The position numbers and the translations under genes were made by a program. The notes under the pieces are model-generated. The model saw only the letters and a list, made by a program, of their open reading frames with translations, was not told the DNA's origin and made no database searches. DNA of 8,684 bases from a bacterium (lineage in GTDB: Bacteria; RBG-13-66-14): positions 1 to 8,684 of the forward strand of contig DATKYS010000104.1 in NCBI GenBank assembly GCA_035528375.1. The letters run 5' to 3'. Below, piece by piece: positions 204-8,684 of the stretch; the first letter of the stretch is position 1; each line of letters begins with the position of its first letter.

Positions 204-530
204 CTACTCCGCCCTCTCCTCGGCGGGATCGAACAGCTCGTCGGGGTTCCGGGCCTCGAGGCTTTTCTCCTGCAGGATTTCGTTGAGGGCGACCACCGTT
301 GACTTCTCCGGACGCGGGACCCCGTAACGCAGCCTGGCGACGTTTATTTCGCGGGCCAGCTTGGCCACCTTCATGACCAGATCGTAGCGGTCCTTCGCCT
401 TGGAGATGAGCTCCTCGATGGATATCTGGTAGAAATTGAAGAGATCCGTGGACCTGGCCTGCAACCGCATGGGTTTAGGTTCCTCTTCAATCAAGCCCTC
501 GGCCTCGGGTTCGTAAACATTTTCGACCAT
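204..530 (-). CDS. rpoZ: DNA-directed RNA polymerase omega subunit
   Basis: This 108-residue protein is assigned to the omega/Rpb6 family from DRYDLVMKVAKLAREIN (about 47-63), which matches the family's NRFELVLxAAxRARxL helix, and from KSTVVALNEIL (about 76-86), matching the following conserved ALxEI segment. Omega binds the beta-prime subunit and helps assemble and stabilise RNA polymerase. The ATG at 530 was chosen because TAGGAG lies 4 nt upstream; the longer frame from a GTG at 572 would overlap the preceding gene and add 14 unrelated residues. An acidic N-terminal extension (EPEAEGLIEEEPKP) and an acidic C-terminal tail lie outside the conserved core. It is the last gene of the operon and is followed by two terminators. 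The short length makes the family call less secure than for its neighbours. Confidence 0.78.
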   Translation of the reverse strand: MVENVYEPEAEGLIEEEPKPMRLQARSTDLFNFYQISIEELISKAKDRYDLVMKVAKLAREINVARLRYGVPRPEKSTVVALNEILQEKSLEARNPDELFDPAEERAE

Positions 531-534
531 TTCG

Positions 535-540
535 CTCCTA
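535..540 (-). promoter_or_regulatory. Ribosome-binding site overlapping the parvulin stop codon
   Basis: TAGGAG contains the TAG stop of the TPR-bearing parvulin and lies 4 nt before the ATG at 530. It decides the rpoZ start in favour of 530 over the GTG at 572. Confidence 0.7.
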
Positions 541-2106
541 AAGGCCTTCGGGAAGTTCGATGTCCTCGTCACGCATGTGCTCGAGCATGTACCGGGCGCT
601 CTCGGAGAGGTCGCCGCGGGGCCAGCGCTCGAGGTAGGCGTTGAACGCCGCCTCGGCCTCGTCGTAGTTCTTCAGCTTGTCCGAGTACAGAAAGCCTATC
701 ATGAACTGAGCCTTGGGCGCCTCGTCGGAGTCGGGGTAGAACTCGAGGATTTTCTTGTAGTAGCTGACCGCGGTGGGCGGCGGGGCCGCCTCGGCCAGGG
801 CGTAAAGCTCGGTCGGGCTTTCCTTGGGTTTCGGTTCGGCGAAGAGGTTTTCCTCGTTCACCACCACGTCGTACTGCTCGCGAAGCTCGGTGAAGAAATC
901 CTGGACGCGCTGGTTGGAGGCTTCACTGATTATTCGACCCCGGACCGCCCCTCGCACCTCTTCGTAAGGTTTCTGACGCGGCTCCAGGTGCGATACTCTC
1001 TGCGCGATGACCCAGCCCGAATCTATCGCGAGCGGTTCCGAGTACTGCCCGTCAAGCAGCTCTTTTATCGCATGGTTGATGACCATGCGGGATTTCCTCC
1101 CCAGGGCCAGGATGGGCGAGGAGGGCTTCAGATAACCCAGAAGGCCGCCGTCGGGAGCGGACGATTCGTCTTCGGAGTACTCTCCGACGACCCGTTCGAA
1201 GCTCTCGCCCCTCTCCAAAGCCTGGTGCGCCGCCTTGATTTTATCCTCCTCCGCGCAGACGATGATGCGGAGCTGGACCTGCTCTTCGTCCAGGTATTCC
1301 CCCTTGTGCTCCTCGTAGAAATTGATGGCGTCGGCTTCGGGAACGAGGATGTAGTCGGCGATGCGGGATTTCACCCGGTCGAAGTCCAGGGCCTTGGACT
1401 CGATATTCTCCTCGACCAGGAGCAGGTGCCAGCCGAGTTTGCTCTGAACGGGGCCCGCCACCTCGCCCACCGGAAGGCCGAAGATGACCGCCTGCAGCTC
1501 GGGCACGGCGCCGAGCTGGGGGATGGGCATGTCCTTCGTCACCAGCCCCAGCATCCCGCCCAGACGTCTGGTCTTGACGTCGGTGGTGTCGGCCTTGGCC
1601 AGGTCGGAGAAGGAAATCTCGCCGGCTGCGAGACGGGCCTTGCCCGCCAGGGCGTCCTCCTCGGTCGCATAGAGGATGTGGCGCAGGCGAACCTGGGCGT
1701 CGGTCATGAACTCGTCGCGGTGGCTGTCGTAGTATTTGCGGAGGGTTTCTTCGGAGTAGCCGTAGAACTCGCCGAAGAAATCCTCGTAGTAGGCGATGGC
1801 CAGGGAGCGCACGCGGGCCTGTTCGATCTGGCGCTCCACCTTGGGATCCGAATCCAGGTCCTCGTCGAGAGCGGCCAGGTAGAGCACCTGCTCCTGGATT
1901 ATCTGATCCAGGAAGCCCCGCCGGCCCTCCTCATCGGTCAGCATGGACTGGTACTGGGGCGGCAGATCGGCTATCCGCTGCTCCAGGTCGTCAATGGTGA
2001 AGGGCTCGCCGTCTATCCAGGCGACGGGGCGGTCGTCCTGGGCCGGCGTCGCCAGACACATCGAGAGGACGGCAAGAACGGTACAGATGAAGGCTGTTCT
2101 GAGCAT
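538..2106 (-). CDS. Periplasmic SurA/PpiC-like peptidyl-prolyl isomerase with C-terminal TPR region
   Basis: This 522-residue protein starts at ATG with AGGTGA 4 nt upstream. It has a signal peptide (FICTVLAVLSMCLATPA, probable cut before Gln23); LSMC is a poor lipobox, so it is likely soluble. About 28-125 is a SurA_N-like helical region. The first parvulin domain (about 140-233) keeps RHIL (His143), LGG and GWH. The second (about 279-375) reads RIIV and GWV at those sites, so both histidines are gone. About 431-512 is a tetratricopeptide-like region (AVSYYKKILEFYPDSDEAPKA, then YDEAEAAFNAYLERWP) of the kind seen in BamD and YbgF/CpoB, an unusual addition for a SurA relative. It lies 40 nt after its paralogue, and its stop codon is built into the ribosome-binding site of rpoZ. 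The likely role is chaperoning outer-membrane proteins through the periplasm. Confidence 0.87.
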   Translation of the reverse strand: MLRTAFICTVLAVLSMCLATPAQDDRPVAWIDGEPFTIDDLEQRIADLPPQYQSMLTDEEGRRGFLDQIIQEQVLYLAALDEDLDSDPKVERQIEQARVRSLAIAYYEDFFGEFYGYSEETLRKYYDSHRDEFMTDAQVRLRHILYATEEDALAGKARLAAGEISFSDLAKADTTDVKTRRLGGMLGLVTKDMPIPQLGAVPELQAVIFGLPVGEVAGPVQSKLGWHLLLVEENIESKALDFDRVKSRIADYILVPEADAINFYEEHKGEYLDEEQVQLRIIVCAEEDKIKAAHQALERGESFERVVGEYSEDESSAPDGGLLGYLKPSSPILALGRKSRMVINHAIKELLDGQYSEPLAIDSGWVIAQRVSHLEPRQKPYEEVRGAVRGRIISEASNQRVQDFFTELREQYDVVVNEENLFAEPKPKESPTELYALAEAAPPPTAVSYYKKILEFYPDSDEAPKAQFMIGFLYSDKLKNYDEAEAAFNAYLERWPRGDLSESARYMLEHMRDEDIELPEGL

Positions 2107-2110
2107 AGTG

Positions 2111-2116
2111 TCACCT
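2111..2116 (-). promoter_or_regulatory. Ribosome-binding site of the TPR-bearing parvulin
   Basis: AGGTGA lies 4 nt before the ATG at 2106, inside the 40-nt gap after the first parvulin gene. No promoter or terminator is visible in that gap, so the two parvulins are likely on one transcript. Confidence 0.6.
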
Positions 2117-2146
2117 CACCGATGACCTGTTTGTCCGTGGTTAGTT

Positions 2147-3436
2147 TTAGCCGGAACCCTCGAGGTAGGCCGAGATTGCCTCCTCGTTTCGTTTGATTCC
2201 CAGGTCCTCTTCGAGGGCGTCGTAGAACTCCTGCTCATTCTCGCGGACCCGTGTCTCGAAGAGCCTCGACTGCGCTTGTGCGCGCACGTTATCGTACTGT
2301 GACTTCTCGCCCGGGGTGAAATCGAGGACCTGGATCACGGCCCAGCCCCGGGATAGCTCGAAAGGTTCACTCATCCCGCCGGGTTTGATGGAGAAGGCCT
2401 CGTCCTCGAAGGTTTTCTCGTCCCCCGTTCCGGCGAACAGGGGCAGGGGTTTCCCGCGGTAGAGCTTGGGGATCAGCCCCCCGTTATCCCTGGTCGCGGC
2501 GTCGAGACTGACCTCGCGGGCGATTTCGTCGAGATTCTCGCCGGCCTTCGCCCGGGCGATAACCCGTTCGGCGTCCTGGCGGGTGGCAGACAGGACGTAG
2601 CGCAGGCTCACCGCGTCGAGGCGGTCGAATTCGTCCCGGTGCGCATCGTAGTAAGCGCGGACGTCCTCCTCCGGGGTGAGGAGCTCCAGGACTATCTGGG
2701 GCTTGGCCTCGTCGAAGGAGAGGGGCTTGCCGGGGTTGAAGGCGTCCACGACGAACACGTGCCAGCCCATCTGGCTCTCCAGCGGACCGAAGGGCTCACC
2801 CACCTCGGCCGAGAAGATGGCCTTGATGACGTAGGGCGGGAGGACCTGGTTGTCGGGATACACCACCGGGAGCCGGCCGCCGTTCACCGCGCTCATCCGG
2901 TCCTTGGAACGCTCGGCGGCCAGTCGGGAGAAGTCGGCCCCGCCCCGGAGCTCGGTGAGGACACGCCCGGCCTCGGCTTCGTTCTCGGTGAGGATGTGCC
3001 TGACATTGGCCTGGGTGGGCGACACCAGTTCGGCGGCGTGATTCTGGTAGTAACCGAAGAGCTCGTCCTCGGAGAAGCCGTAGTTGGCGAAGCTGATGCG
3101 GATGTAGTTGGAGATGATCACGTCCCGGGCGGACTGCTCCAACTGGGCCTGTACGTCGGGAAGCTCGTCCACCCCCGCGGCGAGGGCCGCCTGGTAGAGG
3201 ACCTCCACCTGGATGGATTTTTCTAAAAGCTGCTCCCGTCCCTGGCGTGTTCCCGCCTGCGTGAATCCCTGGTTGCCGAGAAGGGTCGCGGTGCGCTGGA
3301 GATTCTCGACGGTCAACGCCCCGTCGCCGACGTTGACCAGCACGGTCCCCTCCTCACCGCAGCCGGCGAAGAGCACGACAATGGACAGGGCCAGGGCCGC
3401 GGGGATCGTTATTTCCCTTCGGGCGCGGTTACGCAC
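2147..3436 (-). CDS. Lipoprotein parvulin-type (PpiC/SurA-like) peptidyl-prolyl isomerase
   Basis: This is a 429-residue protein starting at GTG, 3 nt after the fmdB-like stop, with GAGGAG correctly spaced 6 nt upstream. The N-terminus is basic, then hydrophobic, ending in VVLFAGC, a plausible lipobox with Cys26 as the lipidated residue (Phe at -3 is less usual). About 33-130 is a helical SurA_N-like chaperone region. A first parvulin domain covers about 143-232 and keeps RHIL (His147), NGG and GWH. A second covers about 278-373 and keeps NGG, but has RYVL and GWA in place of the conserved histidines. Known relatives (SurA, PrsA, PpiD) catalyse prolyl cis-trans isomerisation and chaperone exported proteins in the periplasm or on the membrane. 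It is a clear paralogue of the next gene and probably arose with it by tandem duplication. Confidence 0.87.
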   Translation of the reverse strand: MRNRARREITIPAALALSIVVLFAGCGEEGTVLVNVGDGALTVENLQRTATLLGNQGFTQAGTRQGREQLLEKSIQVEVLYQAALAAGVDELPDVQAQLEQSARDVIISNYIRISFANYGFSEDELFGYYQNHAAELVSPTQANVRHILTENEAEAGRVLTELRGGADFSRLAAERSKDRMSAVNGGRLPVVYPDNQVLPPYVIKAIFSAEVGEPFGPLESQMGWHVFVVDAFNPGKPLSFDEAKPQIVLELLTPEEDVRAYYDAHRDEFDRLDAVSLRYVLSATRQDAERVIARAKAGENLDEIAREVSLDAATRDNGGLIPKLYRGKPLPLFAGTGDEKTFEDEAFSIKPGGMSEPFELSRGWAVIQVLDFTPGEKSQYDNVRAQAQSRLFETRVRENEQEFYDALEEDLGIKRNEEAISAYLEGSG

Positions 3437-3439
3437 CGG

Positions 3440-3733
3440 TCACTCCTCGGGGTCGGGCTTTTTACCGTCGGTTTTCGCGGGGGATTTTTCGGCGGGTTTG
3501 CCATCGGTCTCCGTATCGCGCTCCCGCCTCTCGGCCTTTTTATAGGATTCGGGGCGGTAGTCGGTGGCGTAGAATCCGGAGCCTCGGAAGATCAACCCCG
3601 CGCCGGGTGAGGGCAGCCTTCGGATCGGCCCTCGGCCGCACTCGGGACAGCTCTCCGGATCCCCGGCGGTGATGGGGAGGAAGAGCTCGAAACGGTTGGC
3701 GCAGCTCTCGCAGAGGAATTCGTATGTCGGCAT
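3440..3733 (-). CDS. FmdB-family putative regulatory zinc-ribbon protein
   Basis: This 97-residue protein opens with MPTYEFLCESC, the hallmark start of the FmdB/CxxC_CxxC_SSSS family. Two CxxC pairs (Cys8/Cys11 and Cys29/Cys32) form a predicted zinc ribbon. Residues 33-58 (RRLPSPGAGLIFRGSGFYATDY) match the conserved segment after the ribbon. Residues 61-97 are a highly charged Lys/Glu/Asp tail, likely disordered and not conserved in the family. The family name comes from a putative regulator of formamidase genes, but the biochemical role of most members is unknown. It is the first gene of the operon and sits just below a near-consensus promoter. It has only a weak purine stretch (AAAAGCG) as ribosome-binding site. 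Its 3' end contains the ribosome-binding site of the next gene. Confidence 0.88.
   Translation of the reverse strand: MPTYEFLCESCANRFELFLPITAGDPESCPECGRGPIRRLPSPGAGLIFRGSGFYATDYRPESYKKAERRERDTETDGKPAEKSPAKTDGKKPDPEE
3443..3448 (-). promoter_or_regulatory. Ribosome-binding site inside the end of the fmdB-like gene
   Basis: GAGGAG encodes the last two Glu codons of the FmdB-like protein and stands 6 nt before the GTG at 3436. It supports the GTG start of the lipoprotein parvulin and coupling to fmdB translation. Confidence 0.65.
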
Positions 3734-3844: not shown

Positions 3845-3866
3845 GGGCGGGTTCGTGGACCCGCCC
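3845..3866. other. Strong intergenic hairpin after the second PorV/PorQ gene
   Basis: GGGCGGGT (3845-3852) and ACCCGCCC (3859-3866) form a perfect 8-bp stem with a 6-nt loop, 29 nt after the stop of the barrel gene. No T-run follows on the minus strand, so it is either a U-less terminator or transcript-stabilising hairpin, or another REP-like element; its GGGCGG core resembles the hairpins near base 1. It lies upstream of the operon promoter and probably separates the two transcription units. Confidence 0.55.
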
Positions 3867-3895: not shown

Positions 3896-4846
3896 TCAGA
3901 ACGTGTAGCTCACGCTGAAGCGGTTCTTCATGCCGAAGAGCTCGCCCTCGGGCTGCTGGGCGAAGTCGAACTGGATGCCCAGGTAGCGTACGCTGAACCC
4001 GAAGCTGGTCCCCACGACCGCCGCCGATTCGTCGGAGTAGTAGCCGATGCGCAGGCCGACGATGCCGGCGTACCAGTATTCACCGCCCACTCCGAACACC
4101 GCCTCGCCGAGCTCCGTCTCCAGATCATCGTCGAGCCCCAACATGTACTTGGAGTAATCGAAGCTGAACCGCATCTCGTTGAAATCGTCGTTGAAGGGAA
4201 TCTCGTAGGCCAGGCCGAGCTTCAGCATGCGCGGCAGCGGCGCGGGGACTTTCTGGTAGACGAGGTCCGTCCCCAGGTTCATCACCATAGCGCCCACCGA
4301 GAGCTTCTCCAGCGGCGTCTTCCAGAGAAGACCCGCGTCGAAGGCCACCGCCTGGGCCACGTTTTCGTTGGAGAGGTGATCGTAAACGTACTTCAGCGTA
4401 CCACCCACCCCCAACGCGTCCTCGATGATGTCGTACCCGTACGACAGGCCGACGGATAGCCCGTAGGCGGCCATGTAGCCGATGGGCTGGGGGCTCTCCT
4501 TGGTAATGGCGATGAGGCCGGCGTTGGAGTAGAGGACCCAGATGCCGAAGGTGCCGATGTCCTCGAAGTTGTGGATGTAGCCGAGGTAGTCGTAGTAGAT
4601 GTCATTGCCCTCGAGGGAGCGGTCGGAGTGCATGGCGCCGACCATGTGGTCGGAGAAGAAGCCGAGGCCGGCGGGGTTGTAGTAGGTGGCGTGGACGTCG
4701 TCGGCCACGGCTGTAAAGGCCTTGCCCATGCCGCCGGGTCGGGCGCCGGGGTCCATCGTCAGCCAGGGAACGGTGATGCTGACCGCGTCGGCCAGGGCGA
4801 CGCCGATCGGGATGAGTATCAACAACGCCAAAAACGTCCTGCGCAT
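3896..4846 (-). CDS. PorV/PorQ-family outer-membrane beta-barrel protein (second copy)
   Basis: This is a 316-residue protein. I chose the ATG at 4846 because a GGGAG sits just upstream and the protein then begins with a clean signal peptide (MRRTFLALLILIPIGVALA, cut before Asp20). The in-frame GTG at 4903 would add 19 hydrophilic residues in front of it. The mature N-terminus has the family signature (DPGARPGGMGKAFTAVADD, then TYYNPAGLGF). The C-terminal half matches the usual PorV pattern: GVGGEYWY followed by a glycine-rich strand (GLRIGYY), YLGIQFDFA, and a final strand RFSVSYTF ending in phenylalanine. It lies 111 nt after the first copy on the same strand and is clearly diverged from it. 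It may be a second shuttle with different cargo or a PorQ-like protein; the sequence does not decide. A strong hairpin follows at 3845-3866. Confidence 0.8.
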   Translation of the reverse strand: MRRTFLALLILIPIGVALADAVSITVPWLTMDPGARPGGMGKAFTAVADDVHATYYNPAGLGFFSDHMVGAMHSDRSLEGNDIYYDYLGYIHNFEDIGTFGIWVLYSNAGLIAITKESPQPIGYMAAYGLSVGLSYGYDIIEDALGVGGTLKYVYDHLSNENVAQAVAFDAGLLWKTPLEKLSVGAMVMNLGTDLVYQKVPAPLPRMLKLGLAYEIPFNDDFNEMRFSFDYSKYMLGLDDDLETELGEAVFGVGGEYWYAGIVGLRIGYYSDESAAVVGTSFGFSVRYLGIQFDFAQQPEGELFGMKNRFSVSYTF

Positions 4847-4957
4847 GCCACTCCCGCTGCGGTTCCGGTGTGGGGGTACGTTAACACGCGACCGACCACC
4901 CACTCAAGCCGGTCTTTACCCGTTTCCCGTATACGCTGGCTTTCCCGAATAGTTCCT

Positions 4958-5920
4958 TCAGAAGGCGACGGCGACGCTGACCCTATGGGTGGAGCCCAGC
5001 TCGTGGTTGAGCCAGCAGTAGTCCAGTGAAATACCCCACAGAGACACCCCGCCGCCCAGGGTGAGCTTCCCCCGGTCGGCGCCCAGGCGAGCCGAGAACA
5101 CGTCGGCCACGGTGAGCTCGAGGCCCCCGTGCAGGTCGAGGCTGATGTCGCCGAGATCGAGCTGCGCCGCGTCACCGTAGTCGGCGAGGATGAACTCGGC
5201 GTCGCCGGAGAGGGTCAGCACGCTGTCTATCCCGGCCAGGTCCAAGCCCCACGCCCCCCCGAGCACCACGCGCGGGTCGAAGGTGTCCGCGGTGCCGTTG
5301 CTCCAGGTTTTGACGGTGTAGGGATCGTGGACCACCAGGGCCAGTCCCGCCCGTTCCGACGGCCGCCAGAGGACCCCCAGATCGAAGCCGAACCCGTCGG
5401 CGGTGACCGCGCCACCTTCCGACGTGTCGGGGACCAGGTCGTCGTACAGGTAGCGGACGGTGACACCCGCCGAAAGATTCTCCACGAGCTGCCGCGCGTA
5501 GGTAAGCTGGAAGGCGTTGCTCGTGGAGTCCACCACGTCGTAAACCTCGGGCCGGCCGTCCTCGCCCCAGCGGGTCAGCTTGATGTCGTCGTAGCCGGTG
5601 CGGATCCAGGAGAGGGCGAAGGAGCCCAGACTCTCGTCGGGGGTCCAGAAGCCGGCGAGGGTGTCGTAGTTGACCAGGCCGGCGAAACGGCTGGAGTGCA
5701 TGAAGAGCCCGCCGTAGTTCCCGGCGAAGGCCAGGCCCGCGGGGTTGTAGGCCGGGGCGGCGGCGTCCACGGCCAGCGCCGAGTAGGCCCCGCCCAGGGC
5801 CATCCCACGGGCGCCGAAGCCCGCCGTCAGATAATCCCCGGCGTACAGGGTGTCCCCGTCGGCCGCGACCGCGGTGACGACGAGCAAACCCAGAAGCACC
5901 GTCGGCTGTGTCACGCGCAC
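4958..5920 (-). CDS. PorV/PorQ-family outer-membrane beta-barrel protein (first copy)
   Basis: This 320-residue protein starts at GTG and has a signal peptide (hydrophobic run LLGLLVVTAVA, likely cut near residues 19-20). The mature N-terminus carries the family signature at about 34-65: GFGARGMALGGAYSALA, then APAYNPAGLAF. The rest alternates polar and hydrophobic residues as in a transmembrane barrel and ends in phenylalanine (VSVAVAF), the usual last residue recognised by the BAM machinery. The start lies 8 nt after the stop of the PorU-like gene, and the TAGGAG ribosome-binding site includes that stop codon, so the two are probably co-translated. In Bacteroidota PorV is a FadL-like barrel that shuttles type IX cargo to PorU. 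The position directly after the peptidase gene favours a PorV role, but the family also contains PorQ and many uncharacterised members, so no symbol is assigned. Confidence 0.8.
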   Translation of the reverse strand: MRVTQPTVLLGLLVVTAVAADGDTLYAGDYLTAGFGARGMALGGAYSALAVDAAAPAYNPAGLAFAGNYGGLFMHSSRFAGLVNYDTLAGFWTPDESLGSFALSWIRTGYDDIKLTRWGEDGRPEVYDVVDSTSNAFQLTYARQLVENLSAGVTVRYLYDDLVPDTSEGGAVTADGFGFDLGVLWRPSERAGLALVVHDPYTVKTWSNGTADTFDPRVVLGGAWGLDLAGIDSVLTLSGDAEFILADYGDAAQLDLGDISLDLHGGLELTVADVFSARLGADRGKLTLGGGVSLWGISLDYCWLNHELGSTHRVSVAVAF

Positions 5921-5925
5921 GAAAG

Positions 5926-5931
5926 CTCCTA
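5926..5931 (-). promoter_or_regulatory. Ribosome-binding site overlapping the porU stop codon
   Basis: TAGGAG contains the TAG stop of the PorU-like gene and lies 5 nt before the GTG start at 5920. It fixes the start of the first barrel gene and suggests translational coupling. Confidence 0.7.
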
Positions 5932-8684
5932 ACGTAGCATGATGAATTTCTCGAAGGCCGTGGTCTTGTCGTCACCGTCGCGGGCCTCGAGGGAATACAG
6001 GTAGACGCCGTTGGCCAGCGGCCGGCCCCCGCTGTCGTTTCCATCCCATTCGATGACGTTGAACCCCGTGACCAGACCGGTCGCCTCGAGGGTCCGCACC
6101 AGACGGCCGACGGGGGTGTAGATACGGACGCGCGCCTGGTCCGGCCGTGTGCTGGCGAAGAAGGTGAAGGCCGTCGGGCCCGGGGCGGGGTTGGGCACCA
6201 CCAGCACCTCGGACAGGCCCAGGCTGTCGGCCACCACGAGCTCCGCCGAGGCGGACCCCGGCTCGCCGAAGTTGTCGTAGCAGTAGAGCGTGAGCGTGTA
6301 TTCCCCCGGGGGCAGCTCGAGCTGTCTCTCAATCACACCCCGGGTGTAATCACCGGAGACCGGCGTGTAGTCGTCGGTCAGGTCTATGTCGAAGCTGTGC
6401 TTATCGGCTTCGGCGACGAGGATGATCGGCCGGTCTATGTCGCCGGAGACCATGGGCACCCCGCCGTCGGAGCGGAGCAGAAGGATGCCCTGGGGGTCCG
6501 AGAGCTCGGCGGTGAGCTTGACGCTTCCGTCAATGTAGTCCCCGGAGGCGGTGGCGCCGTCGTCGAAGAAGAGGTTGACTACGGGGCCCTCGTTGTCGGC
6601 GGGCGGGTCCACCGAGCCGACGATGTCCAGTTTCCAGACCGTGTCCGCCGAGAAGGGGGCGTCGGTTATCGTCTCCCCCGTAGTCTCGTCCACCATGTAC
6701 GCCCGGAGCTCCAGGGTGTAGGGGTAAATCTCGTAGTCGGAGAGGTCGTCGTTCATGTCCAGCGGGAGGGCGATCTGGGTCCTGAAAGAGCCGTCAACGA
6801 GCTCCGTCGAGGCGGCGCCGACCAGGCGGTAGATGCGGGTCTCGTAGGGAAAAGTATAGGTGTAGGGCATAATCGGACGGTCGTAGGCCCGAATCTGGAC
6901 GGTTCCCGTCAGCACGGGGCTGTCCGGGGAATGGTCGGTCTGGCCGCCCGTGACGACCAGAACCTCACCCCGGGCGACCCGGTCGCCCGAGGGGGGGGTT
7001 ATGTTCAGGCCGGGCTCGGCCCGGCGCAACAGGGAGGCCGAATCGCCGAACATCGTCTGGCGCTGGCGGTTGTAGGAATCACTTACGATGATGAGGTCCT
7101 GCATGTGGGCCAGACCGAAGGCGGGAATCTCGAGGCGCTTCTCGGGATGATAGAAGGCCTCGAAGAGCGCGCGGTGGTATTTTTTCTGAGCTAACCCTCC
7201 CGAGAGCCGCGTCGAGCCCGTTGCGGCGATGCACCCCTGGGGAAGCCACAGGATGAACTCGCTGATGCAGTTCCGATCTGTGGACGGGGTCCGGTCGAAG
7301 TCGGCGACGGAGCACGACGACTGGATTAACAGCGGCGTTACGGGGCAGTCCCATTCATCGAAGTCCCGGTAGAGGGGCGGACGGTTCGTCTCCGCCAGCT
7401 CGTGGGTCCAGGTGTTCCAGGCGCCGTGGCCGATGAAGCTGACCACGAGCTCGCCCTGACGGAGAGCCTCCCAGAACGCGGGGGTGACGTGCTCCCGGGT
7501 GGCCCAGCGGCGTTTTCCCACGTCGTACTTCTGCGGAGTTTTGGACCTTTCGCCGGTCATGGCCATGCCCAGGGCGGTCAGGTAGACCTTGTCGTTCACC
7601 ATGCCGGCCTGCGCGGAGTACCGTAGCATATCCTCGGCGTCGATGTCGAAGGTGATGGGCTCGTTCTGGGAACCTTCGGGCGGTTCGCCGACGTAGATCA
7701 CGGTGTTGTCCACAAGAAGGACGTGGTTGGTCTGCCAACTGCCGCCCGGAAGTTCGGGGTAGGCCGTGGCGTGGGAGACGTACGTCTCGAGCTGGGAGGG
7801 TTCGTAGGCACTGATACGGGTGAGGGCGACCTGGGGCAGCGGCACGTCGGAGTCGAGCTGCTCATCGGTCAGAAGGGAGGCGAAGTAGTTATCGCAGGCG
7901 ACGAAGTAGGCGTTAGTCGAGGCGCTGATGACGTACGCGGTGGGGAGCATGGCCTGGGGGAATTTTCTCCAGTTCGGACCCTGATACCGGCTCTCCACGT
8001 CGCGGTAGTCGAAGGAGGTGTCCCCCACCAGGGTGACGAAGGTCAGCGGGTCGCCGACGCAGTCGGTCCAGGCGTGGTAGATGTAGTTGCGGATGGCGGC
8101 CGGGTCCAGCCGTCCGCCCGAGTACTCGTCGTAGATGTCGTCCACGCGGACCACCTGGACTCTCGTGCCCTCGGCGCGGTGCATCTCCACCAGGGGGTCC
8201 AGGGGAGCGCAGAGGTCCGGGTGGGCGATGTACACCAGGTCTGCGTCAACGGGTGAGTGAAGGTCCGACGGTACGTCGAGGTAAACGTCCAGGGGCTCGA
8301 GAGCCTGCCCGAGGTCCGCCACCACCAGGTGGTAATCCGGCTCGGCGTTCCAGACGAACTCGGCGTCGCGGGAGCCCTCGGGCCCGGTGAGCTCGAAGTT
8401 CACCAGGGATTCACCCCGGGTGAGGTCCCAGAAAACGAGGTCGTCGCCGGTGACGTCGGTAACCCGCATCCCGCGTTCGCCCGACACTCCCGTCGGGCCC
8501 CAGCCTTCGAGTGTGCTCGACTGCGCGCGCAGTCCCCGGTTGTAAATCACCTGGAAGCTGTCCACGTAGATACCCGCGTAGTAGGGATGAAGGGGGTCGG
8601 GTGATGGTGGTACGCTTATCTCGAAGGTAAGGTAGTTCGTCCCGTCCTCCACCTCCCCTGCCGGTATGTCCCCCCATACCTTGT
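5929..8684 (-). CDS. porU: PorU-like C25 (gingipain-family) cysteine peptidase, 5' end outside the window
   Basis: Residues are numbered from a GTG at 8652, but the frame stays open through ten more codons to the window edge (reading KVWGDIPAGE), so this GTG is internal and the N-terminus, including any signal peptide, is missing. A caspase-like C25 core covers about residues 135-540. It includes LVGDTSFDY near 208, a CDNYFASL segment near 253, the IGHG motif with the presumed catalytic His409 (codon 7426-7428), and QSSCSVADFD with the presumed nucleophile Cys447 (codon 7312-7314). About 690-807 is an Ig-like region resembling the one that follows the peptidase in PorU (GPVVNLFF, LPPGEYTLTLYCYDNFG). 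About 812-907 is a FlgD/type IX-sorting-like tail (VVPNPAPGPTAF, IYTPVGRLVRTL, GNDSGGRPLANGVYLY), ending in KFIMLR and a TAG stop. PorU in Bacteroidota is the surface sortase that removes C-terminal sorting domains and attaches cargo to lipopolysaccharide, working with PorV. The next gene being a PorV-like barrel supports PorU over a secreted gingipain-like protease, which remains the alternative. Confidence 0.8.
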   Translation of the reverse strand, partial: KVWGDIPAGEVEDGTNYLTFEISVPPSPDPLHPYYAGIYVDSFQVIYNRGLRAQSSTLEGWGPTGVSGERGMRVTDVTGDDLVFWDLTRGESLVNFELTGPEGSRDAEFVWNAEPDYHLVVADLGQALEPLDVYLDVPSDLHSPVDADLVYIAHPDLCAPLDPLVEMHRAEGTRVQVVRVDDIYDEYSGGRLDPAAIRNYIYHAWTDCVGDPLTFVTLVGDTSFDYRDVESRYQGPNWRKFPQAMLPTAYVISASTNAYFVACDNYFASLLTDEQLDSDVPLPQVALTRISAYEPSQLETYVSHATAYPELPGGSWQTNHVLLVDNTVIYVGEPPEGSQNEPITFDIDAEDMLRYSAQAGMVNDKVYLTALGMAMTGERSKTPQKYDVGKRRWATREHVTPAFWEALRQGELVVSFIGHGAWNTWTHELAETNRPPLYRDFDEWDCPVTPLLIQSSCSVADFDRTPSTDRNCISEFILWLPQGCIAATGSTRLSGGLAQKKYHRALFEAFYHPEKRLEIPAFGLAHMQDLIIVSDSYNRQRQTMFGDSASLLRRAEPGLNITPPSGDRVARGEVLVVTGGQTDHSPDSPVLTGTVQIRAYDRPIMPYTYTFPYETRIYRLVGAASTELVDGSFRTQIALPLDMNDDLSDYEIYPYTLELRAYMVDETTGETITDAPFSADTVWKLDIVGSVDPPADNEGPVVNLFFDDGATASGDYIDGSVKLTAELSDPQGILLLRSDGGVPMVSGDIDRPIILVAEADKHSFDIDLTDDYTPVSGDYTRGVIERQLELPPGEYTLTLYCYDNFGEPGSASAELVVADSLGLSEVLVVPNPAPGPTAFTFFASTRPDQARVRIYTPVGRLVRTLEATGLVTGFNVIEWDGNDSGGRPLANGVYLYSLEARDGDDKTTAFEKFIMLR

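Follow-up and report, generated by a model that had tools for sequence, protein, structure and literature searches.

The type IX secretion system (T9SS) is usually described as a single machine of the Bacteroidota and a few relatives, in which a rotary motor, PorL/PorM, drives export via the PorK/PorN ring. The closest described assemblies for the present case are the PorU-PorV-PorZ-PorQ complex of Porphyromonas gingivalis and the SprA-PorV(-PPI) translocon of Flavobacterium johnsoniae (6h3i; PMC10994853). The latter has a peptidyl-prolyl isomerase (PPIase) as a subunit, and removal of its motor leaves substrates stalled on SprA (PMC10994853). Here we analyse an 8684-base stretch of DNA, the entire contig C104 (hereafter the window) of a 2.63 Mb genome rated 100% complete, which carries a porU-type gene followed by two genes for PorV-family barrels. 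The genome is that of a Candidatus Coatesbacteria member, phylum Candidatus Coatesiibacteriota, with Coatesbacteria RBG_13_66_14 (83%), CSMAG_1439 (72%) and Bin_537 (47%) as the closest named genomes, which confirms an earlier note on this DNA that had suggested a poorly studied phylum, probably outside the Bacteroidota. Literature searches found no description of a T9SS in Coatesbacteria. We conclude that the window very probably holds the genes for the attachment end of an outer-membrane export pathway of T9SS type, in which the motor shaft PorM and the ring protein PorN are absent or unrecognisable.

The locus resembles the P. gingivalis complex in that its peptidase has the PorU architecture, with a Cys-His dyad and an immunoglobulin-like (Ig) tail, and a PorV-family barrel is encoded next door. 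As in the P. gingivalis T9SS, the genome also encodes cargo with type A C-terminal domains (CTDs), C25 peptidases included. It differs in having two tandem PorV-type barrels after porU and two parvulin PPIases in the same block, in belonging to a different phylum, and in showing no confident PorZ or PorQ (no genome-wide search for PorZ was made). With the F. johnsoniae translocon it shares a SprA over the equivalog cut-off and PorV-family carriers, whereas GldM and GldN were not detected, and the PPIases are parvulins of the porU block.

The window peptidase is a frame of 917 residues on the minus strand (5929-8682), shortened at its 5' end by the edge of the contig; full-length PorU proteins from the same genus (L085, L084) have 1433-1488 residues, the L084 copy being 1488 residues long. 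The earlier note had described an intact C25 core with GHG and SSC motifs and a FlgD-like C-terminus, and both descriptions hold. The core matches PF01364 (E 1e-49) and the tail matches FlgD_ig (PF13860, residues 843-903, E 2e-9), although the same tail scores 17.1 bits against the TIGR04183 type A sorting domain, under the cut-off of 23. The two motifs correspond to His419 and Cys457. Neither residue varies among 17 aligned PorU proteins drawn from several phyla, and in the alignment with the solved P. gingivalis PorU (6za2) the two fall on its GHG and TC motifs. By analogy, the window peptidase would remove CTDs by means of this dyad.

Comparison along the whole protein identifies the peptidase as a PorU, as had been proposed, rather than a secreted gingipain-like protease. 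Against the T9SS_sortase model NF033707 it gave 251.6 bits across profile positions 260-1094, the first quarter of the profile being lost beyond the contig edge. Its full-length relatives span positions 8-1093, and PorU of two other families of the phylum reach 428.7 and 443.4 bits, over the equivalog cut-off of 420; the model finds matches in all 14 phylum genomes. A profile of the 17 PorU proteins matched 6za2 at 518.5 bits (profile 258-1385 on residues 19-1153), covering the PorU architecture of N-terminal domains, C25, Ig domains and tail along its length, whereas gingipain R2 was matched at 101.6 bits and in its catalytic part only. Used as a single query, the window peptidase also ranks 6za2 first in the PDB (E 7.5e-18). 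A gingipain identity is rejected on the PorU profile match together with the presence of separate gingipain-like C25 proteins in the genome. The PorU2/PorV2 pair (NF052324, NF052325) is a related sortase and barrel, and barrel A gives 79.7 bits with PorV2, but this identity is rejected on the score of the peptidase, 251.6 bits with PorU against 41.2 with PorU2.

Both barrels exceed the cut-off of 90 bits for the PorV/PorQ family NF033709 (barrel A, 103.9 bits; barrel B, 189.5 bits), and the top PDB sequence match for each is F. johnsoniae PorV, 6h3i_F (E 3e-6 and 2e-5, respectively), in agreement with their earlier reading as two PorV/PorQ barrels. In the phylogenetic tree, the barrels found directly after porU in G014, G020 and G038, three genomes from other phyla, group with barrel B (95/99), and the porU-adjacent genes of other Coatesbacteria families (G007, G012) group with barrel A (100/99). 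From these groupings, barrel B is therefore the best PorV orthologue and barrel A a lineage-specific partner. The structure models are of low confidence (mean pLDDT 48 and 46), and only the rank order of their matches was used; the barrel B model (mean pLDDT 48) has 14 strands, and its two best PDB folds are PorV (8gl6_F and 6h3i_F). The likeliest start codon of barrel B is the ATG at 4846 rather than the GTG at 4903, because a 91%-identical relative begins there.

A PorV-family gene lies directly after porU throughout the phylum and in five genomes outside it, in two of the five weakly. This adjacency bears on the reading of the window as a secreted gingipain-like protease beside unrelated FadL/UPF0164 porins, brought together by chance. 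Such a reading could draw on the C25 core and on the UPF0164 match of barrel B, which is weak, at 25.7 bits just above the Pfam cut-off of 21.4. It is contradicted by the full-length PorU match, by the conservation of the porU-porV adjacency within and beyond the phylum, by the leading position of PorV in both sequence and fold searches, and by the gingipain-like C25 proteins encoded separately in the genome, and we regard it as largely refuted and very improbable.

The SprA/Sov translocon of the window's genome is a single frame of 1893 residues, which scores 335.9 bits against TIGR04189 (cut-off 200) and matches the solved SprA, 6h3i_A, with E 5e-23. SprA matches were obtained in each of the 14 phylum genomes, most of them above cut-off; SprA is also over cut-off in eight genomes outside the phylum, seven of which have a strong PorU as well. 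Separately, G055, G047 and G025 encode PorU-like proteins of 205-355 bits, and SprA was not found in those genomes.

The window's genome further contains seven PorV-family proteins over cut-off and 27 FlgD-like tails. Type A sorting domains over the curated cut-off end a subtilase, an M14 carboxypeptidase, an M1 peptidase and a C25 peptidase: TIGR04183 gives 40.0-41.9 bits (cut-off 23) on three secreted peptidases, and PF18962 is over its cut-off on four. Two C25 proteins other than PorU carry a FlgD-like tail and score just 44-56 bits against PorU, and the one of them that was scanned has a type A sorting domain as well as a propeptide of the gingipain type. These two gingipain-like proteins are candidate cargo. 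Together, SprA, the type A sorting domains and the seven PorV-family proteins support the proposal that a T9SS-like attachment module exists outside the Bacteroidota.

At several places in the genome, a tail-bearing open reading frame (ORF) is directly followed by a same-strand PorV-family ORF. By the FlgD_ig criterion, such pairs lie on C104 (porU itself), C28 and C88; other CTD models add pairs on C2 and C74, and weaker ones occur at C113. The pairs at L107:607-2971, L108:1-2204, L112:1716-6609, L110:1688-5136 and L109:3839-6672 are far above expectation: with 27 tails and 7 barrels, and 2300 genes assumed, chance would give 0.08 pairs, in a count done after the pattern had been noticed. They are likely dedicated cargo-shuttle pairs. 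This arrangement resembles the type B CTD/PorP-SprF pairs of F. johnsoniae (PMC12618676), where a tail-bearing gene also precedes its dedicated barrel gene; unlike there, the barrels belong to the PorV family and most of the tails are type A or FlgD-like. At L112:4657-6609, a 650-residue protein consists of a PorV-family barrel fused to a long TPR domain.

The genes of the window are listed in Table 1. The AGGAG ribosome-binding site of barrel A overlaps the porU stop codon TAG (5929-5931), with the GTG start 5 bases on, an overlap that had already been recognised. L084, where PorU is 82.9% identical, shares the gene order of the window (porU, barrel A, barrel B, FmdB, PPIase, PPIase, rpoZ), as do L086 and L087, where PorU is about 47% identical. 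Since relatives whose PorU is 46-83% identical retain this order, the arrangement is not due to chance. The tandem parvulin PPIases (538-3436) are double-domain proteins, the second with TPR, conserved beside porU-porV-porV, and probably help to fold the barrels or the cargo. Hairpins noted previously in this DNA are present as short perfect hairpins at 13-34, 51-72, 160-180 and 3845-3866, and an Rfam search of the window, hairpins included, gave no family match.

Table 1. Features of the window, with coordinates, strand and the evidence for each.
Feature	Coordinates	Strand	Evidence
porU-type gene, C25 sortase/CTD peptidase; 5' end cut by contig end	5929..8684	-	NF033707, 6za2 profile match
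C25 catalytic domain	7036..8235	-	PF01364; His419 codon 7426-7428, Cys457 codon 7312-7314
PorU C-terminal FlgD-like Ig tail (CTD-like), ends ...EKFIMLR	5932..6219	-	PF13860 residues 843-903
porU stop codon overlapping barrel A ribosome-binding site (TTAGGAGCTTTCGTG)	5926..5931	-	sequence
PorV-family barrel A (Coatesbacteria-type, adjoins porU)	4958..5920	-	NF033709, PDB match, tree
PorV-family barrel B (PorV orthologue by tree)	3896..4846	-	NF033709, PDB, fold, tree; ORF open to 4903
FmdB-type zinc-ribbon protein, conserved neighbour	3440..3733	-	TIGR02605 over cut-off; synteny L084, L086, L087
Parvulin-type PPIase/chaperone 1, conserved neighbour	2147..3436	-	PF13145 twice; synteny
Parvulin-type PPIase/chaperone 2, C-terminal TPR, conserved neighbour	538..2106	-	PF13145 twice, TPR_6; synteny
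rpoZ, RNA polymerase omega; ends conserved block, no part in secretion	204..572	-	TIGR00690 over cut-off

Several points weigh against the assignment of the window to a T9SS-type pathway. The window PorU, cut at its 5' end, stays at 251.6 bits below the NF033707 equivalog cut-off of 420, and the full-length PorU proteins of the same genus are also under it, at 342.8 (L085) and 271.3 bits (L084, with masked stretches). Neither barrel reaches the 250-bit cut-off of the PorV equivalog NF033710 (A, 40.3 bits; B, 99 bits). Profiles for PorM/GldM and for PorN/GldN each matched in 0 of the 14 phylum genomes, with working positive controls. With PorZ, PorQ and an anionic lipopolysaccharide (A-LPS)-type anchor not established, covalent attachment is no more than possible. 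The organism is uncultured, and the roles proposed rest on homology.

The controls for these negatives came from a scan of 386 genomes, three of which gave GldM over cut-off (264-394 bits), with GldN beside it in all three (189-248 bits); a repeat GldN search of 25 genomes gave matches solely in the three control genomes. GldM and GldN were likewise not detected in the eight SprA-bearing genomes outside the phylum, two of which have PorU of 776-910 bits and SprA over 650 bits. As far as profile searches can tell, all of these genomes, within the phylum and outside it, either lack PorM, the motor shaft, and PorN, the ring protein, or have them in forms too diverged to be recognised. Among the outcomes that the earlier note had named as decisive, SprA was found, and the peptidase and barrels proved to be PorU and PorV-family proteins rather than gingipain-like or unrelated ones, whereas PorM and PorN were not found. 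What that note called a system is therefore read here as an outer-membrane half.

It may be that the T9SS is in fact complete and classical, with PorK, PorL, PorM and PorN too diverged or merged for profiles built on Bacteroidota. SprA, at 335.9 bits, and PorU are themselves diverged in this phylum, and faster-evolving periplasmic parts could escape detection. However, the GldM and GldN models find adjacent genes at 189-394 bits in the three controls and none in the 14 phylum genomes or the eight other SprA-bearing genomes, among them the two with the high PorU and SprA scores given above. We consider a hidden classical system less likely than not.

Alternatively, an ExbB/ExbD-family 5:2 motor could replace PorL/PorM, in direct or TonB-like contact with SprA or PorV. 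In three genomes from two families of the phylum (G010, G011, G012), sprA is followed directly by exbB-exbB-exbD-exbD, at L130:2812-11259, L145:5132-13539 and L131:6243-11671, respectively, which makes these genes a candidate SprA motor. The window's genome has only two ExbB/TolQ/MotA proteins. One sits in an apparent Tol-type operon (L144; by gene order and size), and the other, the sole non-Tol ExbB, lies in a cluster (L110:1-9480, contig C74) of a TonB-dependent receptor, a CTD-tailed protein, a PorV-family barrel, GWxTD, ExbB, ExbD, ExbD and TonB. An identity of these ExbB proteins with GldL is rejected, as the profiles match TolQ/ExbB structures only in the PDB, not GldL. Precedents are found in Myxococcus, where protein secretion depends on ExbB/ExbD/TonB (PMC6434023), and in the classification of ExbBD and GldLM together as 5:2 motors (PMC9389320).

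On the other hand, neither the window's family nor the other phyla examined have sprA and exbB as neighbours, G010 and G011 represent a single genus, and an N run marks a join in the G012 assembly. Diderm bacteria very commonly carry ExbB operons, and the TonB cluster includes a TonB-dependent receptor, so that ordinary nutrient uptake would explain it. As a motor lead, the sprA-exb linkage is suggestive only, and we hold the replacement of PorL/PorM by such a motor to be doubtful. The broader proposal, of a SprA/PorV/PorU pathway that works without PorLMN in Coatesbacteria and several phyla outside the Bacteroidota and uses instead an ExbB/ExbD-family motor, with its genes beside sprA in some lineages, we judge unlikely.

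Two further observations concern the surroundings of sprA. In G014 (L132:13932-18501, L133:1-8903), the same strand downstream of sprA encodes GldK-like sulfatase-domain proteins, two PorV-family barrels, a CtpA-type protease and ExbB-ExbD-ExbD-TonB. In G012, sprA is in two pieces 1.16 Mb apart (L147:5369-10177, L131:6243-8933), each broken at an N run, and this single-contig assembly looks like joined contigs.

Returning to the attachment end of a T9SS-type pathway as the preferred reading, its basis is homology, intact catalytic residues, conserved gene order, the translocon and the sorting domains, whereas the route of transport, the cleavage of tails, the attachment and any motor are inferred. 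Studied systems (PMC7463736, PMC10994853) serve as the model for the carrier and sortase roles. Cargo, meaning secreted peptidases that end in a type A sorting domain, would cross the inner membrane by Sec and exit the outer membrane via the SprA barrel, whose gene lies outside the window. A barrel of the PorV family would then take the cargo by its tail at SprA and deliver it to PorU, which, seated on PorV at the surface, would cut the tail with its Cys-His dyad, the cut cargo being either released or joined to a surface anchor. Because neither PorM nor PorN was found, we file the pathway as a T9SS-like variant and not as a classical T9SS: its outer-membrane half is firmly identified, and its energy source is another one or highly diverged.

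A translocon, shuttle, sortase and tagged cargo present across a phylum where PorM and PorN are not recognisable imply either that the motor has evolved beyond recognition or that energy comes from another source. Should the ExbB/ExbD-powered reading be true, the outer-membrane translocon would predate the gliding-type motor and be separable from it. Whether the motor has diverged or another source is used, the answer would bear on what energises transport through SprA, and the linkage of sprA with exbBBDD offers a concrete site at which to test it.

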